DNA of 64,000 nt from Nocardioides lijunqiniae (GTDB lineage Bacteria > Actinomycetota > Actinomycetes > Propionibacteriales > Nocardioidaceae): the NCBI RefSeq assembly GCF_015024225.1, contig NZ_JACJGM010000009.1:62001-126000 (forward strand), given 5' to 3'. This document shows, piece after piece, positions 12,548 through 60,922 of this stretch (its first letter is position 1; every line of letters begins with the position of its first letter). The notes beneath the pieces are model-generated. The model was not told the DNA's origin. It did no database searches and saw nothing but the letters and a program-made list of their open reading frames with translations. Made by a program: the position numbers and the translations under genes.

Positions 12548-13705
12548 TCAGGAGAAGGGGGTGAGCAGTCGGCCACCCATCCAGACGCTGCTGACCAGCG
12601 GGACACCAGGACGATAGGCCAGGTGGACGTGGCTCGGGGCATCGACCACGACGAGGTCGGCGCGGCGCCCCGGCTCCAGGACGCCGACGTCGTCGCGGTC
12701 GAGGGCCGCCGCGCCGGTGGCGGTGGCGGCGCGCACGGCCTCCAGCGGGGTCAGGCCCATCTCGCGCACCGCGAGCGCGATGCAGAAGGGCAGCGAGCTG
12801 GTGAAGCTCGAGCCGGGGTTGCAGTCGGAGGCGATCGCGACGCGGACGCCGGCGTCGAGGAGACGGCGCGCGTCGGGGTAGGGCTGGCGTGTGGAGAACT
12901 CCACGCCGGGCAGCAGGGTGGCGATCGTGCCGGAGTCGCGCAGCGCGTCGACGTCCTCGTCCTCGAGGTAGGTGCAGTGGTCCACCGCGACCAGGCCGAG
13001 CTCCGCGGCCAGGCGCACGCCGGGGCCCGGTCCGAGCTGGTTGGCGTGGAGGCGGCCGCGCAGGCCGTGGGCGCGGCCGGCCTCCAGCACCGCACGCGCC
13101 TGGTCGGCGTCGAAGGCGCCGGTCTCGCAGAAGACGTCGACCCACCGCGCGTACGGCGCCGCCGCCTCGAGCATCGGGCCCGTCACGAGCTCGACGTACG
13201 CCGCCGGGTCGCCCTCGGGCACCACGTGGGCGCCCAGGAACGTCGTCTCCTCGGTGAACTGCGCCGCCACGGCCAGGCTGCGGGCCTCGTCGCGGACGGT
13301 CAGCCCGTAGCCGGACTTGATCTCGACGGTGGTCGTGCCCTGGCGGCGCATCTCCTGCACGAGGCGCCCGACGTGGGCGGCGAGCTGCTCGTCGGTGGCG
13401 GCGCGGGTGGCGGCGACGGTGGTGCGGATCCCGCCGGCGGCGTAGGGCTCGCCGGTCATGCGGGCCGTGAACTCCGCCGACCGGTCGCCGGCGAACACCA
13501 GGTGGCTGTGGCTGTCGACGAAGCCGGGGACGACGGCGCGCCCGCCGAGGTCGACGCGCTCGTCGGCGTCGGGCGCCTGCGTGGCGGGCCCGACCCAGGC
13601 GACGGTCGCGCCCTCCATCACGAGGGCGGCGCGCTCCAGGGTGTCGGGGCCGTCGGTGGCGAACGTGGTCAGCTCGGCGATGCCCGTCAGCAGGGTGCTG
13701 GTCAT
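12548..13705 (-). CDS. hutI: Imidazolonepropionase
   Basis: 385 residues, normal length for HutI, which hydrolyses 4-imidazolone-5-propionate to N-formimino-L-glutamate in histidine degradation. Amidohydrolase-fold motifs are intact: [17 protein letters not shown] (metal HxH), [28 protein letters not shown] and [15 protein letters not shown]. Its ATG overlaps the hutF stop by 4 bp, so the two are translationally coupled. The next gene downstream, pcs, starts 11 bp after its stop. Its product is the substrate of HutF encoded just upstream. The other two hut enzymes lie about 12.5 kb away. Confidence 0.95.
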
Positions 13706-15072
13706 GCCCAGGTCCTCTCGATGGCGTCGGCGAGGTCGCGGCCGACCCGCTCGCGGTCGTCGTCGCGGAAGGTGACGCGCCCGTCGGCCACGACGTGGAC
13801 GACGTCGGCGGCCGTGGCGGCGAACACCGCGGTGTGCCCGTCTGCGCCGGTGCCGGCGGTGCGGGCGCTCGCGGTGTCGAGGGTGACCAGGTCGGCGCGC
13901 TGGCCGACCGCGATGGCGCCCGCGTCGGGGAAGCCCAGGCTGGCGTGCCCGGTGACGGTGGCCGCGGCGAGGAGCTCGGCGGCCGTCCAGTGGCCGCGGG
14001 TCCGGGTGGCGAGGCGCTCGTCCATCTCGACGGCGCGCATCTCCTCGAAGAGGTCGATCACGGCATGGCTGTCGGAGCCGAGCGTGAGGGGGCTGCCCGC
14101 GTCGTGCAGCCGTCGGCTGGGGCCGACCCCGTCGCCGAGGTCGCGCTCGGTGGTCGGGCAGAAGCACGCGCGCGCGCCGGCGCCCCCGAGGAGGGCCACG
14201 TCCTCGTCGGTGAGGTGGGTGGCGTGGACCGCGGTGGTCAGCGGTCCGAGCACGCCGTGGTCGGCCAGCAGCCGGGTGGGCGTGACGCCGTGCGCCGCGC
14301 GGCAGGCGTCGTTCTCGGCCGTCTGCTCGGACAGGTGCACGTGCAGGGGTCGCCCGGCGCTCGCCTCGACCACCGTGGCCAGCTGGTCGGCGGGCACCGC
14401 CCGGACGGAGTGGACGGCCGCGCCGACGACGGTGGCGTCCTCGGGTCGCAGCAGGGCGACGCGCTCGGCCCAGCGCCCGGCGTCGCCGTCGGAGTAGCGC
14501 ACCTGGGCGCCCTGCGGCGGCTCGCCGAAGCCGCTGCTGAGGTAGCAGGTGTCCAGCAGCGCGATCCGCACGCCCGCCTCCCTTGCGGCCTCGACGAGGG
14601 CGAGGCCCATCGCGTTGGGGTCGTCGTACGGCGTGCCGTCGGGCTGGTGGTGCAGGTAGTGGAACTCCCCCACGGTGGTCACGCCGGCCGCCGCCATCTC
14701 GCCGTACGTCGCCCGCGCGAGCCGGTGGTAGGTGTCCGGGTCGAGCCGTCCTGCCACGGCGTACATCTGCTCGCGCCAGGTCCAGAACGTGCCCCGCTCC
14801 CGCTGGGTCCTACCTCGCAGCGCCCGGTGGAAGGCGTGGCTGTGGCAGTTGGCCAGGCCGGGGAGGGTGAGGCCCGGGAGGCGGTGAGTTTCACCGGGTA
14901 CCCGGTGAAACTCACGCTTCCGGGGTGAAGTCTCGTCAGGGAAGCGTGAGTTTCGCGACGCCGCTGTGACAGAAGTGAAACGTCCGCCCTCGATCGTCAC
15001 CAGCACGTCGTCGGCGACGTCGCCGTCGACCCACGCCCGCTCCAGCAGGTACGCCGTCGGGTCGGCGCTCAC
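13702..15072 (-). CDS. hutF: Formimidoylglutamate deiminase carrying an in-frame repeat insertion
   Basis: 456 residues. HutF deiminates N-formimino-L-glutamate to N-formyl-L-glutamate and ammonia. Conserved parts include [18 protein letters not shown] (metal HxH at residues 77 and 79), [21 protein letters not shown] and [10 protein letters not shown]. Residues about 35-63 (including [15 protein letters not shown]) have no counterpart expected in the family. They are encoded by an 87-bp palindromic element (14884-14970) that recurs twice elsewhere in the window. The insertion is exactly 29 codons and sits in the N-terminal beta region, 13 residues before the HxH motif, so the enzyme may still fold. 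It overlaps its neighbours on both sides by 4 bp. Confidence 0.92.
14884..14970 (+). repeat. 87-bp palindromic element, copy A (inside hutF)
   Basis: It starts with a perfect 32-bp palindrome (arm GTGAGTTTCACCGGGT followed by its exact complement, 14884-14915). A second hairpin follows, with 14-bp arms aaactcacgcttcc (14907-14920) and ggaagcgtgagttt around a variable loop, then GCGACG-CG-TGTGAC. By eye, about 76 of 87 bases match copy C at 60836. On the minus strand it is open and read as part of HutF. The 87 bp length keeps the frame. Confidence 0.9.
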
Positions 15073-16271
15073 CGCGCCAGCCGCTCGAGGGTGTCGGCCA
15101 GGGCGCTGACGCCGACGAGGCAGTCGGCGATCCGCGCCGACTCGGCGGGCGAGTGCGAGACGCCGGTCGGGTTGCGCACGAAGAGCATGGCCGAGGGGAT
15201 GCCGGCGGCGGACAGGATGCCGGCGTCGTGACCGGCCTGGGTCGGGACGACCGGCCAGTCGCCGCCCTCGTGGTCAGCGGCGATCCTCGCGGCGAGGTCC
15301 GCGGCGAAGACGACCGACGACGACACCGACTCGGCGGTCACCTCCAGCGACGTGCCGTCACGCCCCGCGCGGTCTGCCCCTTGCCGGGAGACCGCCTCCA
15401 CCAGCGTCGCGAGGTCCTCGTCGCTGGCGCAGCGGGCGTCGAGCCACGCGGTGACCCGCGACGGGACGGCGTTGGTGCCGTTGGGCGTCACCTCGAGGCG
15501 ACCGAAGGTCGCGCGGGAGCCCGCCAGCCGGGCCTGCTTGTTGGCGGCCAGCGCCGTCATCGCGTAGGTCAGCATCGGGTCGGCGCGGTCCTCCATGCGC
15601 GTGGTGCCCGCGTGGTTGGCCTCGCCCGTGAAGTCGAAGCGGTAGCGCCCGTGCGGCCAGATCCCGCTGGCCACGCCCACCGCGGCGCCGCGGTCGACCA
15701 GGTCGCGGCCCTGCTCGACGTGCAGCTCCACGAACGTCGCCACGCGGGCCAGCGACATCACCGAGCCGTCAAGCCCCGCCGTCTCGAGCGCGTCGGGGAG
15801 CGCGACGCCGTCGCGGTCGCGGAGCTCGCGGGCATCGGCCCACGACAGCGCCCCGCTCGCCAGGCGCGAGCCCAGGCAGGCCAGGCCGAAGCGCGAGCCC
15901 TCCTCCTCGGCGAAGACCGAGACCCCGATCCGCCTGCGGGGCACGACGCCGCGCGAGCGCAGCAGGTCGACGGCCGCGAGCGCGGAGACGACGCCGAGCG
16001 GACCGTCGTACGCGCCGCCGTCGAGCACGGAGTCGAGGTGCGAGCCGGTGAGGACGTCGCCCTCCTCGACCACGGGGGGCTCCCACCAGGCGACGAGGTT
16101 GCCCAGGCCGTCGGCCTCGACGCTCAGGTCGCGCGCGGTCGCCTGCTCGACGAACCAGGCGCGCAGCTCGGTCTCCGCGGAGAGGTAGGGCTGGCGGAAG
16201 TAGCCGCCGGAGGACGCGGACCGCCCGACCGGCGCCAGGTCCGCCCACATCCGCTCGAAGTCGTCAGCCAT
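15069..16271 (-). CDS. M20-family amidohydrolase (allantoate amidohydrolase-like) of the hut operon
   Basis: 400 residues. Metal-site text of the M20 / AllC / N-carbamoyl-L-amino-acid hydrolase family is intact: GSHLDSVLDGGAYDGPLG, FAEEEGSRFG, ELHVEQGRDL, GEANHAGTTRM and TQAGHDAGILSAAGIPSAMLF. Databases usually call such proteins allantoate amidohydrolase, but here the stop overlaps the hutF start by 4 bp and no purine-degradation gene is nearby. No HutG is visible, so hydrolysis of N-formyl-L-glutamate to glutamate and formate is a reasonable alternative (inference). A GGGAGG ribosome site lies 4 bp before the ATG. The divergent nitroreductase begins only 22 bp away. Confidence 0.82.
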   Translation of the reverse strand: MADDFERMWADLAPVGRSASSGGYFRQPYLSAETELRAWFVEQATARDLSVEADGLGNLVAWWEPPVVEEGDVLTGSHLDSVLDGGAYDGPLGVVSALAAVDLLRSRGVVPRRRIGVSVFAEEEGSRFGLACLGSRLASGALSWADARELRDRDGVALPDALETAGLDGSVMSLARVATFVELHVEQGRDLVDRGAAVGVASGIWPHGRYRFDFTGEANHAGTTRMEDRADPMLTYAMTALAANKQARLAGSRATFGRLEVTPNGTNAVPSRVTAWLDARCASDEDLATLVEAVSRQGADRAGRDGTSLEVTAESVSSSVVFAADLAARIAADHEGGDWPVVPTQAGHDAGILSAAGIPSAMLFVRNPTGVSHSPAESARIADCLVGVSALADTLERLAR

Positions 16272-16293
16272 GGTGCCTCCCATACTGGTGCAC

Positions 16294-21131: not shown

Positions 21132-21215
21132 GTCCCAGTGCCCGTACGAAACTCACGCTTCCCGGCCGAAACTTCGCACCGGAAGCGTGAGTTTCACCGG
21201 GTACCGGTGAAACTC
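21132..21215 (-). repeat. 87-bp palindromic element, copy B (intergenic, inverted, degraded)
   Basis: Same architecture as copies A and C, but inverted: arms aaactcacgcttcc (21149-21162) and ggaagcgtgagttt (21181-21194), then the palindrome with one base lost in its centre (ACCGGGTACCGGT). The outer flank is only partly conserved. It fills most of the 140-bp gap between DUF1992 and the first CoA-ester lyase gene. Confidence 0.85.
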
Positions 21216-36635: not shown

Positions 36636-39600
36636 ATGCAGATCGTCGCCATCGTTGTCTCGCTGGCCATCACCGCCGTCGGCATCACCCTGTTCGTCCG
36701 GGCGATCCGCGACATCCTCGCCACACTCAGGATCGGCCAGCCGGCGGCCCGCACGGACAACCCCCTGGGTCGCACCCTCGTGATGCTCAAGGAGACGCTC
36801 GGCCACACCCGGATGCTCCAGTGGACGATCGTCGGGATCGCCCACTGGTTCGTGTTCGTCGGCTTCGGGCTGCTGTTCTTCACGCTGCTGACGGCGTTCG
36901 GGCAGCTCTTCGACCCGGAGTTCGCGCTGCCGCTGATCGGCACGTTCTTCCTCTACGAGTGGGTCACCGAGCTCTTCACGGTCGTCATGATCGCGGCGAT
37001 CGTCGGGTTCATCGCCTACCGCGCCCGCCGCCCCAAGGAGCGCACCCGCGGCGTCAAGGGCCGCTTCTGGGGCTCGACCATGTGGCAGGGCTACTTCGTC
37101 GAGTCCGTGATCCTCGGCGTCGGCCTGTGCATCGTCACGCTGCGCGGGCTCGAGTACGCCCTGCTCTCCCACGGCTCGCACGCCGACCACGCCTCCGCGC
37201 TGCACTTCCCGCTGACGTTCTGGCTGGGCGAGGCGTTCTCCGGCCTGTCCGAGGGCACCCTCGAGAACCTCGTCTACCTCGTGGCCATGCTCAAGATCAT
37301 CATCTCGTTCGCGTGGATGATCACGATCTCGCTGAACCTGACGATGGGCGTCGCCTGGCACCGGTTCTCGGTGTTCTTCAACATCTGGTTCAAGCGCGAG
37401 TCGTCCGGCCGCACGGCGCTCGGCGCCATGAAGCCGCTCACCTCCGACGGCAAGGCGATCACGCTCGACGACATCGACGACCTCGACGAGGACTCCAAGC
37501 TCGGCGTCGGCGCCATCGAGGACTTCAGCTGGAAGGGCATCCTGGACTTCTCGACCTGCACCGAGTGTGGCCGCTGCCAGTCGCAGTGCCCCGCCTGGAA
37601 CACCGAGAAGCCGCTGTCACCCAAGCTGCTCATCACCGCGCTGCGCGACCACGCCTTCGCCAAGGCGCCGTACCTCCGGGCCGAGGGTGACGAGGCCCGC
37701 GCCGCCCTGCTCGAGGGCAACGACACGCTGACCCGCGAGGTCGAGCGCCCGCTGATCGGCGACACCGGCGACGACTGGTTCTACATGCCCGACAGCGGCG
37801 CCGCGGTGATCGACCCCGAGGTGCTGTGGAACTGCACGTCCTGCGGCGCTTGCGTCCAGCAGTGCCCCGTCGACATCGAGCACGTCGACCACATCATGGA
37901 CATGCGTCGCCACGCCGTGCTGGTGGAGTCGAACTTCCCGGCCGAGCTCAACGGTCTCTTCAAGGGCCTGGAGAACAAGGGCAACCCGTGGAACATGTCG
38001 CCCAACGCGCGCATGGACTGGGCCAAGGGCCTCGACTTCGAGGTCAAGGTCGTCGGCGAGTCGATCGAGTCCCTCGACGAGGTCGACTGGCTCTTCTGGG
38101 TCGGCTGCGCCGGTGCCTACGAGGACCGCGCCAAGAAGACCACCCGCGCCGTGGCCGAGCTGCTGGACATCGCCGGCGTGAGCTTCGGCGTCCTCGGCAA
38201 CGGCGAGACCTGCTCGGGTGACCCGGCGCGCCGCGCCGGCAACGAGTTCGTCTTCCAGGGCCTGGCCCAGCAGAACGTCGAGACGCTGAAGGAGGCGAAG
38301 GCCAAGACCGTCGTCTCGACCTGCGCCCACTGCTTCAACACCCTCAAGAACGAGTACTCCGACTTCGGCATCGAGCTCGAGGTCGTCCACCACACCCAGC
38401 TGCTCAACCGCCTCGTCCGCGAGGGCAAGCTGACCCCGGTCAACGACGGCGCCGGCGCCCACAAGCGCTCGATCACCTACCACGACCCGTGCTACATCGG
38501 CCGCCACAACGGCGTCTACTCCCCGCCGCGCGAGCTGCTCCAGATCCTCCCCGGCGCCGAGCTCGTCGAGATGGAGCGCAACTCCGAGCGCTCGTTCTGC
38601 TGCGGCGCCGGCGGCGCCCGCATGTGGATGGAGGAGAACACCGGCGAGCGGATCAACGTCAACCGCACCAACGAGGCCGTCGGCACCGGCGCCGACCAGA
38701 TCGCGGTCGGCTGCCCGTTCTGCCGGGTGATGCTCTCCGACGGCCTGACCGCAGCCCAGGCGAAGGGCGAGGCCCGCGAGGAGGTCGAGGTCCTCGACGT
38801 CGCGCAGATGCTGCTCGCCTCGGTCAAGGGTGAGCAGGCCACCAAGCTCGCGCCCGGCGCGGGTGCCGGCGCCGGCGCCGCCGCCAAGGCCAGGCCTGCC
38901 GAGAAGGACCCCGACAAGGACGAGGCCACGAAGGCCGAGCCCGAGGCCGGCGACGACACGATCACCGAGGACACCGTCGTCGACACCGAGGACGCCGGGC
39001 CGCTGGCCAAGGCCTCCGGCGGCTCGTCGCTCTTCGACGACCCCGAGATGACGTCCCCCGACGACGTGGAGTCGACGCCCGACCCCGCGCCGTCGGCGAA
39101 GCCCGTCGAGAAGACGGGCGGCTCGCTGTTCGACCTCGGCGACGACGACGAGCCCGAGGCGACGTCCGCACCGGAGCCCGAGGCCCCGGCGGAGACGAAG
39201 GCCGAGCCCACCACGGACCTGGCGTCGGGCGGCGGCTCGCTGTTCGACCTCGGTGGCGACACCGAGGAGCCGCAGGCGAAGGCCGCCCCGGAGCCGGCGA
39301 CGGCGTCCGAGCCGGAGCCTGAGGCCGAGGCCGCCCCGGCGGTGGAGCTCGGCTCCGGAGGCGGGTCGCTGTTCGACATCGCCTCCCCCGAGCCCGTCGT
39401 CGCCCCGGCGGCGAAGCAGGCCGAGCCCGAGCCCGCGAAGCAGCCCGAGCCCGAGCCGGCAGCGGAGCCTGCGGCCGAGGCCGCGCAGCCGACCACGGAG
39501 ATCCCCGAGTCCGGGTCGCTGTTCGACATCGCCGCGGCCGAGCCGGCCCCGGCGCCCGCGAAGGCCGAGCCCGCACCCGCACCCGCGGCCGAGCCGGAGC

Positions 39601-40040
39601 CGGAAGCCGAGCCGGAACCGGAGGCGAAGGCCGAGCCCGCGCCCGCGGTCGCCGCGCCGGCAGCGGAGATCCCGGAGTCCGGGTCGCTGTTCGACATCGA
39701 GGCCCCCGCGCCGTCGGCGCCCGCGCCGAAGGCCGAGGCCCCCGCGGAGCCGGAGCCCGAGCCGGAGCCCGTGCCGGCGGCGCCGGAGGCCGAGGAGAGC
39801 ACCTCCCCGGGCGCCGCCCTCAGCGCCGCCGCGACCTCGCTCGCCAGCGACGCCGACGCGCCGGAGGAGACGCCCGCGACCGAGCCGGAGGCGGAGCCCG
39901 AGCTCGAAGCCGAGCCGGAGGACGAGGCTGAGCCCGAGCCGCAGGCCGAGGCGAAGCCGAAGCCGGCGAGCTCCGGCGAGAAGCACCAGCCGAAGACCGA
40001 CGTCGACATCAGCGACTCCGGCTCCCTCTTCGACCTGTAG
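36636..40040 (+). CDS. etfD: EtfD-like membrane Fe-S oxidoreductase with long repetitive tail
   Basis: 1134 residues; GAGGAG lies 9 bp before the ATG. Residues 1-230 hold about five membrane helices of NarI-like type. Two 4Fe-4S motifs follow (CTECGRCQSQCPAW near 308, CTSCGACVQQCPVD near 400), then CCG/heterodisulfide-reductase domains (CSGDPARRAGNEFVFQ, HDPCYIGRHNGVY, SFCCGAGGARMW, GCPFCRVML). This matches mycobacterial Rv0338c/EtfD, which reoxidises the electron-transfer flavoprotein in beta-oxidation. Residues about 745-1134 are a disordered Ala/Pro/Glu-rich tail with seven SLFD motifs (GSLFDL or GSLFDI in six, SSLFDD once), including the very C-terminus. That tail is the unusual part; mycobacterial homologues are shorter. 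Confidence 0.9.
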   Translation: MQIVAIVVSLAITAVGITLFVRAIRDILATLRIGQPAARTDNPLGRTLVMLKETLGHTRMLQWTIVGIAHWFVFVGFGLLFFTLLTAFGQLFDPEFALPLIGTFFLYEWVTELFTVVMIAAIVGFIAYRARRPKERTRGVKGRFWGSTMWQGYFVESVILGVGLCIVTLRGLEYALLSHGSHADHASALHFPLTFWLGEAFSGLSEGTLENLVYLVAMLKIIISFAWMITISLNLTMGVAWHRFSVFFNIWFKRESSGRTALGAMKPLTSDGKAITLDDIDDLDEDSKLGVGAIEDFSWKGILDFSTCTECGRCQSQCPAWNTEKPLSPKLLITALRDHAFAKAPYLRAEGDEARAALLEGNDTLTREVERPLIGDTGDDWFYMPDSGAAVIDPEVLWNCTSCGACVQQCPVDIEHVDHIMDMRRHAVLVESNFPAELNGLFKGLENKGNPWNMSPNARMDWAKGLDFEVKVVGESIESLDEVDWLFWVGCAGAYEDRAKKTTRAVAELLDIAGVSFGVLGNGETCSGDPARRAGNEFVFQGLAQQNVETLKEAKAKTVVSTCAHCFNTLKNEYSDFGIELEVVHHTQLLNRLVREGKLTPVNDGAGAHKRSITYHDPCYIGRHNGVYSPPRELLQILPGAELVEMERNSERSFCCGAGGARMWMEENTGERINVNRTNEAVGTGADQIAVGCPFCRVMLSDGLTAAQAKGEAREEVEVLDVAQMLLASVKGEQATKLAPGAGAGAGAAAKARPAEKDPDKDEATKAEPEAGDDTITEDTVVDTEDAGPLAKASGGSSLFDDPEMTSPDDVESTPDPAPSAKPVEKTGGSLFDLGDDDEPEATSAPEPEAPAETKAEPTTDLASGGGSLFDLGGDTEEPQAKAAPEPATASEPEPEAEAAPAVELGSGGGSLFDIASPEPVVAPAAKQAEPEPAKQPEPEPAAEPAAEAAQPTTEIPESGSLFDIAAAEPAPAPAKAEPAPAPAAEPEPEAEPEPEAKAEPAPAVAAPAAEIPESGSLFDIEAPAPSAPAPKAEAPAEPEPEPEPVPAAPEAEESTSPGAALSAAATSLASDADAPEETPATEPEAEPELEAEPEDEAEPEPQAEAKPKPASSGEKHQPKTDVDISDSGSLFDL

Positions 40041-60835: not shown

Positions 60836-60922
60836 GTGAGTTTCACCGGGTACCCGGTGAAACTCATGCTTCCCGCATGAAGCTTCGTGCAGGAAGCGTG
60901 AGTTTCGCGACGGCGGTGTGAC
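60836..60922 (+). repeat. 87-bp palindromic element, copy C (intergenic)
   Basis: Same length and orientation as copy A. The 32-bp palindrome has one change at its last-but-one base (ACTCAT for ACTCAC). The loop of the second hairpin is itself palindromic (GCATGAAGCTTCGTGC). The trailing GCGACG-CG-TGTGAC is kept. It lies between the sigma factor start and the SnoaL gene stop. Confidence 0.88.

Follow-up and report, generated by a model that had tools for sequence, protein, structure and literature searches.

The hutF gene of Nocardioides lijunqiniae, which encodes formimidoylglutamate deiminase, holds in frame a copy of a short palindromic repeat dispersed through the same genome. This is a real protein-coding palindromic element of a known general kind; what is unusual is its recurrent same-site history, as repeat families of the species concerned appear to have filled the same HutF loop time after time. 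One way to understand the pattern, to which we give a probability of about two in three, starts from a short, non-autonomous, mobile palindromic repeat: a permissive loop of HutF would be repeatedly occupied, replaced and vacated by the family active in each genome, the copy being translated as a disordered loop; pabB would offer a second site of the same sort.

The element within hutF

In the window (the whole stretch of DNA analysed, 64,000 nucleotides), hutF lies on the - strand at 13702..15072 and encodes 456 aa (NF006681, 651 bits, cut-off 362). On one side it overlaps by 4 bp with hutI, for imidazolonepropionase (12548..13705, - strand; TIGR01224, 370 bits), and on the other, also by 4 bp, with a gene of the allantoate amidohydrolase family (15069..16283, - strand; NF006770, 575 bits). 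An earlier note on this DNA had described the gene as intact and overlapping both neighbours in this way, and the profile matches bear it out. The element copy spans 14884..14970 on the + strand, and its dispersed copies reach at most 88% ungapped identity to it over a 75-bp core. Its parts follow one another on the + strand as palindrome A, stem-loop B and tail, so that the element is antisense to hutF; on the - strand its bases supply, in frame, HutF residues 35-63.

Direct reading of the sequence gives palindrome A (14884..14915) two perfect 16-bp arms, just as the earlier note had it for the first 32 bases. Stem-loop B (14907..14954), with perfect outer arms of 15 bp, shares its left arm with palindrome A; both features are unstranded. 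The tail (14955..14982, + strand) was placed by eye through comparison with other copies, and its boundary is uncertain because the far end merges with conserved hutF codons. A likeness between this tail and the GRFTSVT codons of hutF was also noticed by eye. Codon 35 begins at 14970 and codon 63 contains 14884; the 87 bp thus make 29 stop-free codons. The claim of exactly 87 bp, or 29 codons, accordingly stands as to coordinates and frame, but not as to a natural unit: 87 bp is a match length, for the tail of other copies continues, by eye, about 10 bases past that end. Nor does the protein gain 29 residues, since its own linker has 43 residues against 25 in the commonest insert-less form, a net gain of 18.

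An AlphaFold2 model of HutF (57-row alignment, mean pLDDT 91.1) gives residues 41-60 a mean pLDDT of 49, between strands 31-37 and 62-71 of the well-modelled core; sequence alignment with the solved HutF structure, 3mdu, starts only at residue 62. The model is most readily taken to show the loop as a disordered excursion on the surface of the small strand domain. The hutF copy would then be translated as a disordered surface loop, because roughly half of the frames of such elements are free of stops and the enzyme would tolerate the loop; the intact frame is our ground for proposing both translation and tolerance.

The dispersed family in the genome

A search of the window's own genome (G000; 4.81 Mb in 75 contigs) gives 113 overlapping pieces of the family, from 40 of 48 first-look candidates scored; these amount to some 40 places, of which 29 are clear and about 11 weaker. 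Two of them stand elsewhere in the window, both in intergenic DNA, where the repeat had previously been reported: one at 21147..21215 on the - strand (L009), 16 bp past a called stop codon, the other at 60836..60922 on the + strand (L003), 87% identical, at a position also occupied in the sister genome (L420). Allowing one mismatch, the window contains 6 occurrences of the half-site GTGAGTTTCACC, where chance would give 0.12. By eye, the copies in this genome have palindrome A, stem-loop B and tail in common.

Genes were called here by a simple codon-usage script. Among 39 places, hutF alone lies wholly within a called gene, and three others extend into the end of a called gene by 1-23 bases; the 39 leave out L152, an 18-base match within a gene (E 0.03) taken as chance, and in the same list L150 has no match and L025 repeats L021. 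Twenty of the other 38 places are at most 30 bp from a 3' gene end and 28 at most 60 bp; 13 places are between convergent genes. Over the 75-base core of 28 copies, hutF included, the frame used in hutF is stop-free in 20, a second forward frame is open in 27 and one reverse frame in all 28, while the remaining three frames are open in 0, 3 and 1.

One filled/empty pair is available. In the sister genome G127 a copy stands about 20 bases past a stop codon in a stretch of 152 bases, against 10 bases in G000; the element has therefore been gained or lost at this spot, and in this one pair no target-site duplication or target motif was found. Further positions are common to G000 and G127 or G153, and since several are thus shared by close relatives, movement is slow. 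Comparison by gene orthology of G000 (42 loci) with G037 (30 loci, some overlapping) finds two shared locations: hutF and one neighbourhood, L144/L161.

The hutF site across Nocardioides

A HutF match is present in 194 of 215 genomes. The best 130 N-termini were translated, and 123 could be parsed, the linker being measured between a conserved Phe and a conserved Asn. Directly upstream of LPGL-x-LPGL-x-N-x-HSHAF the site is either short or extended: 75 linkers have 23-29 residues, 11 have 30-39 and 37 have 41-51, with exactly 43 in 15 of the long-linker HutFs, most of which are alike in frame and orientation. The commonest insert-less linker is 18 residues shorter than that of N. lijunqiniae, a difference of the kind for which the earlier note proposed to align related HutFs; the contrary case named there, a similar-length loop of unrelated sequence in all orthologues, is at odds with 75 short against 37 long linkers. 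These 130 HutFs, like the 30 pabBs considered below, are the best-scoring entries of rankings made with insert-bearing queries; insert fractions are therefore biased upward, and 37/123 is no unbiased frequency. Seven of the 130 N-termini were unparsed, including that of G178, which looks insert-bearing; G083, which has a genuine element, is scored with a linker of 32, and for G051 the 48 residues of the linker may be low-complexity sequence instead of an element.

Extension goes with palindromy. Of the 37 long linkers, 32 have perfect arms of at least 10 bases (the other five have shorter arms), as against 2 of 75 short linkers; 24 control stretches of equal length from the same genes have none. 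A whole-gene scan places arms of 9 or longer in the linker for 21 of the 24 extended genes, all but L042, L043 and L052; outside the linker the longest arms of these extended genes are at most 12, except in L042 (16) and L053 (15). Among 13 genes classed as insert-less or partial, two show arms of 10 at or close to the site.

The perfect palindrome had been taken as a possible sign of recent insertion, a suggestion that the relatives contradict. The sister species L032 (= the L061 sequence, Nocardioides sp. 503), whose HutF is 91% identical, has the same element in the same place, as does the more distant L033. With these, the many other species extended at the site, and the nine genomes whose insert comes from their own repeats, an insertion recent and confined to one strain is rejected; because extended linkers are widespread and filled with the genome's own repeat, upkeep of the palindrome within the family, or replacement, explains its perfection better than youth. 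The same comparison disposes of the concern over sequencing or assembly error: independently sequenced species, including the named records L061, L062, L063 and L065, have the same structure, and an artefact is hardly credible.

A different view places selection on the hairpin itself, acting in hutF and pabB mRNA or DNA (as an attenuator or a decay signal, for example), with each lineage recruiting its own repeat. Palindromes do outlast sequence change here, and the RNA of the element region in hutF folds at -51.4 kcal/mol, far stabler than shuffles (z -5.0, 0/200). Strong folding, however, is to be expected of palindromes as such; the short-linkered majority of parsed HutF genes is nearly devoid of long arms; and nine loci are without an Rfam match above the gathering score. 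We consider selection on the hairpin improbable.

The insert and each genome's own repeats

All nine genomes tested have, as their hutF insert, a member of their own dispersed family. Queries with the genome's own insert gave dispersed families in G000, G037, G141, G025, G201, G035 and G058; the best identities to own copies were 96% in G037, 96% over 71 bases in G141, 88% in G025, 92% in G201, 93% in G035 and 93% in G058. The families of G083 and G106, hutF copy included, were caught with the inserts of G201 and G025, respectively. G127 and G153 have the same family as G000, again with hutF included. G203 and G094, queried only with the G201 insert, have 4 and 3 weaker matches, none in hutF.

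Identities rank accordingly. Over the 75-base core, the median ungapped identity of an insert to its own genome's copies is 79-85% (7 genomes), against medians of 41-76% to the copies of other genomes (7 genomes), with the related pair G025/G106 set apart at 73-80%. Across 13 species the insert cores are 42-85% identical and the rest of hutF 71-89%; shuffled cores average 47% with a maximum of 57%, so that some species share a family (G000, G127 and G153), while many pairs stand near the shuffled level. G113 and G025, with 87% identity in hutF, have 61% in the insert. The families of Nocardioides would, on the preferred reading, change fast and differ between species, mostly within one architecture of perfect palindrome, stem-loop and tail.

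A genus-wide search with the N. lijunqiniae element finds it in at least 20 of 215 genomes at E 1e-6, with up to four candidates scored per genome. Set against their own 20-kb flanks, hutF inserts give one clear extra copy (L061) amid chance matches, among the matches listed. Loci L208-L237 represent a different family, the long hairpin of G025 and G106, with 152 and 217 first-look candidates.

A second site in pabB, and other reading frames

The earlier note had proposed looking for the element inside other reading frames, and copies of such repeats are found there. In G037 a copy lies inside pabB (aminodeoxychorismate synthase component I; TIGR00553, 312 bits, just below the cut-off of 328), in the same frame as in HutF. 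Relatives of this protein are found in 203 of 215 genomes; from the best 30 loci, 23 were parsed and 7 were unparsed, and 15 of the 23 linkers have perfect arms of at least 10, against 0 of 23 downstream controls of equal length. The element is reversed, by eye, in at least one case (L392). The pabB of N. lijunqiniae itself, a 435-codon stop-free frame, has an in-frame copy of a second family (G000:C73:10235-10304, or L375:2304-2373), which is found at 15 other places in that genome at E < 1e-5. In G035 and G027, the family of the G035 hutF insert has copies within pabB coordinates as well. This shows the same pattern as in hutF, own genome included, with a second family there; pabB may be a second permissive site. 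A third gene is represented by a 587-aa ORF of G141, with no NCBIfam match, in which an in-frame element (L192:1501-1565) has its order reversed relative to most hutF copies.

Two further observations concern such genes. The pabB of G017 (L396) has another palindrome in its linker, with 12-bp arms around GCTTGTCGAGG...CCTCGACAGGC. The C-terminal end of an AraC-like regulator ORF of G037 is encoded by an element (L166:1501-1575).

One insertion or many

A quick maximum-likelihood tree was made from 62 HutF proteins using the region after the loop only; duplicates and the most distant genera were left out by hand, insert labels were set by eye, and 17 branches are open. Insert presence requires 15 changes on its 62 rows, a count from which L035 is excluded and in which some rows scored as lacking the insert are intermediate in length (L047, L101, L111 and L127). 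For the short-linker group, the starred branches force at least 9 changes; this label is somewhat clustered on the tree, as 6 of 500 shuffles are equally low. Gains on such a tree cannot in general be told from losses.

The distribution could also be read as a single ancient insertion into hutF that passed down by vertical descent, was rewritten lineage by lineage through gene conversion from the genome's dispersed copies, and was lost many times independently. Linker length and position are nearly constant, and usually orientation and frame are too; identity is highest within genomes. From the constant length and prevailing orientation, descent with conversion would account for part of the pattern. 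By eye, the linker of L129 resembles a G025-type element reduced to a remnant, possibly an intermediate of loss. Other features of the site are no products of simple conversion: the hutF element of G201 (= the L065 sequence, N. speluncae) is opposite in orientation to the related element of G083, to which it is 81% identical; and the hutF site of G025 and G106 is filled by a different element, a long single hairpin. Their neighbour L038, which groups with L045 at support 88, has an element of the GTGAGTTTC type, and L038 and L045 differ in the element class found in hutF. In addition, the insert-less linkers of L068 and L069 resemble, by eye, the short linkers of Kribbella and Streptomyces, and are unlike deletion scars. 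Descent from one ancient insertion is a serious alternative, but an unlikely one.

Repeated occupation of a permissive loop accommodates these features. Starred sister rows differ in having or lacking the insert in five cases: L060/L071, L058/L081, L078/L079, L097/L129 and L093/L101, the last with an intermediate linker in L101. In the first pair the insert is present in L060 and absent from L071; G027, the genome that matches L071, has copies of the family at other places, hutF not being among the matches. The opposed orientations, the swap of element class and the sisters that differ in the insert suggest that one site was repeatedly occupied, or its occupant replaced. The patchy distribution, the orientation flip and the element swap are the grounds for proposing that the HutF loop before the LPGL block is a permissive site, which the active family would occupy, replace and vacate repeatedly.

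A stronger claim is that the HutF and PabB loops are true landing pads, at which some non-HUH system of mobilization or recombination repeatedly places and replaces palindromic elements of the current family, in both orientations. We advance this tentatively, at somewhat less than even odds. If true, conserved enzymes would gain and lose peptides of unrelated sequence over times comparable to those of speciation.

Mobilization and comparison with known systems

Mobilization by a domesticated Y1/HUH transposase, as in the RAYT/TnpAREP system, deserves consideration, because the size of palindrome A, the copy number and the position near 3' gene ends resemble those of REPs (PMC3733652). The copies are mostly intergenic and near 3' gene ends, as REPs are. 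PF01797, the Y1/HUH REP transposase family, is however absent from all 11 genomes searched, while 6 of 14 controls were positive (5 above cut-off), and a Y1 transposase is rejected as the mover in those 11; nor is there, by eye, a conserved GTAG or CGTC foot in the 26 of 29 G000 loci that fit the script's pattern, CGTC following stem-loop B in a few G000 copies only (by eye). The element fails the test for RAYT-REP membership, and this origin is very improbable; in the genomes tested, the mover would be something other than a Y1/HUH REP transposase. Searches of Rfam with the nine loci gave two weak sub-threshold matches, and membership of an Rfam family is rejected for all nine.

Protein-coding palindromes are known mainly from Rickettsia and Wolbachia, with scattered REP cases besides. 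As described in excerpts of two papers (PMC10969869, PMC2229807), the Rickettsia palindromic elements and the Wolbachia protein-coding palindromes are dispersed, and some are inserted in frame in conserved genes. The likeness to the Rickettsia elements drawn in the earlier note was apt, so far as those excerpts describe them: the Nocardioides element, too, forms a dispersed palindromic family, in its own genome and in other species, and is inserted in frame in intact conserved genes, namely hutF and pabB (the latter in G037 and G000). It is shorter, at about 72-95 bp against 105-150 bp in the same sources. It differs further from the Rickettsia elements, as they appear there, in its high-G+C actinobacterial host, in its species-specific families, in having one pair of recurrent landing sites (hutF and pabB), and in that the family of G000 is within a gene at 1 of 39 examined places only.

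Intragenic REPs of the GTAG/CGTC families occur in several bacteria, mostly near 3' gene ends and some within ORFs (PMC3733652). The Nocardioides palindromes share both habits, but they are without the conserved foot (by eye) and without a Y1 gene in 11 genomes. The nearest precedent for occupation of one site comes from the same paper: two Xanthomonas species have different REPs at nearly the same site of recB (PMC3733652). In Nocardioides, by comparison, there are many species, two genes and an orientation flip. MITEs with open reading frames, namely ERIC/RU-1 and the 107-bp Correia form, are, in the excerpted account of PMC2229807, likewise short non-autonomous repeats fused in frame to a gene. 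Terminal inverted repeats with target duplication, as MITEs have, were not seen for the N. lijunqiniae element: the one filled/empty pair has no clean duplication, and it is the long hairpin of G025 and G106 that has terminal inverted repeats (by eye). Predicted REP counts for three actinobacteria are given in the portion seen of PMC12306157, so REP-like hairpins in this phylum are already in print.

In the open full-text literature, no report of in-frame palindromic elements in Nocardioides or other actinobacteria was found among the matches listed, and same-site recurrence across many species appears to be new, the two-species recB precedent apart. The same loops of two metabolic enzymes are filled in many species of a free-living actinobacterial genus, by the genome's own repeat where tested. 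This provides a natural replicate series for asking how repeats move, whether palindromes or loops are the target, and how an enzyme is affected when a peptide of about 20 residues is exchanged; sisters with and without the insert, such as L060 and L071, make such questions directly testable in soil bacteria.

Elsewhere in the window, positions 39153-39969 hold a long run of imperfect repeats in which GAG, CCG and GCG triplets are abundant, probably a Pro/Glu/Ala-rich protein region.
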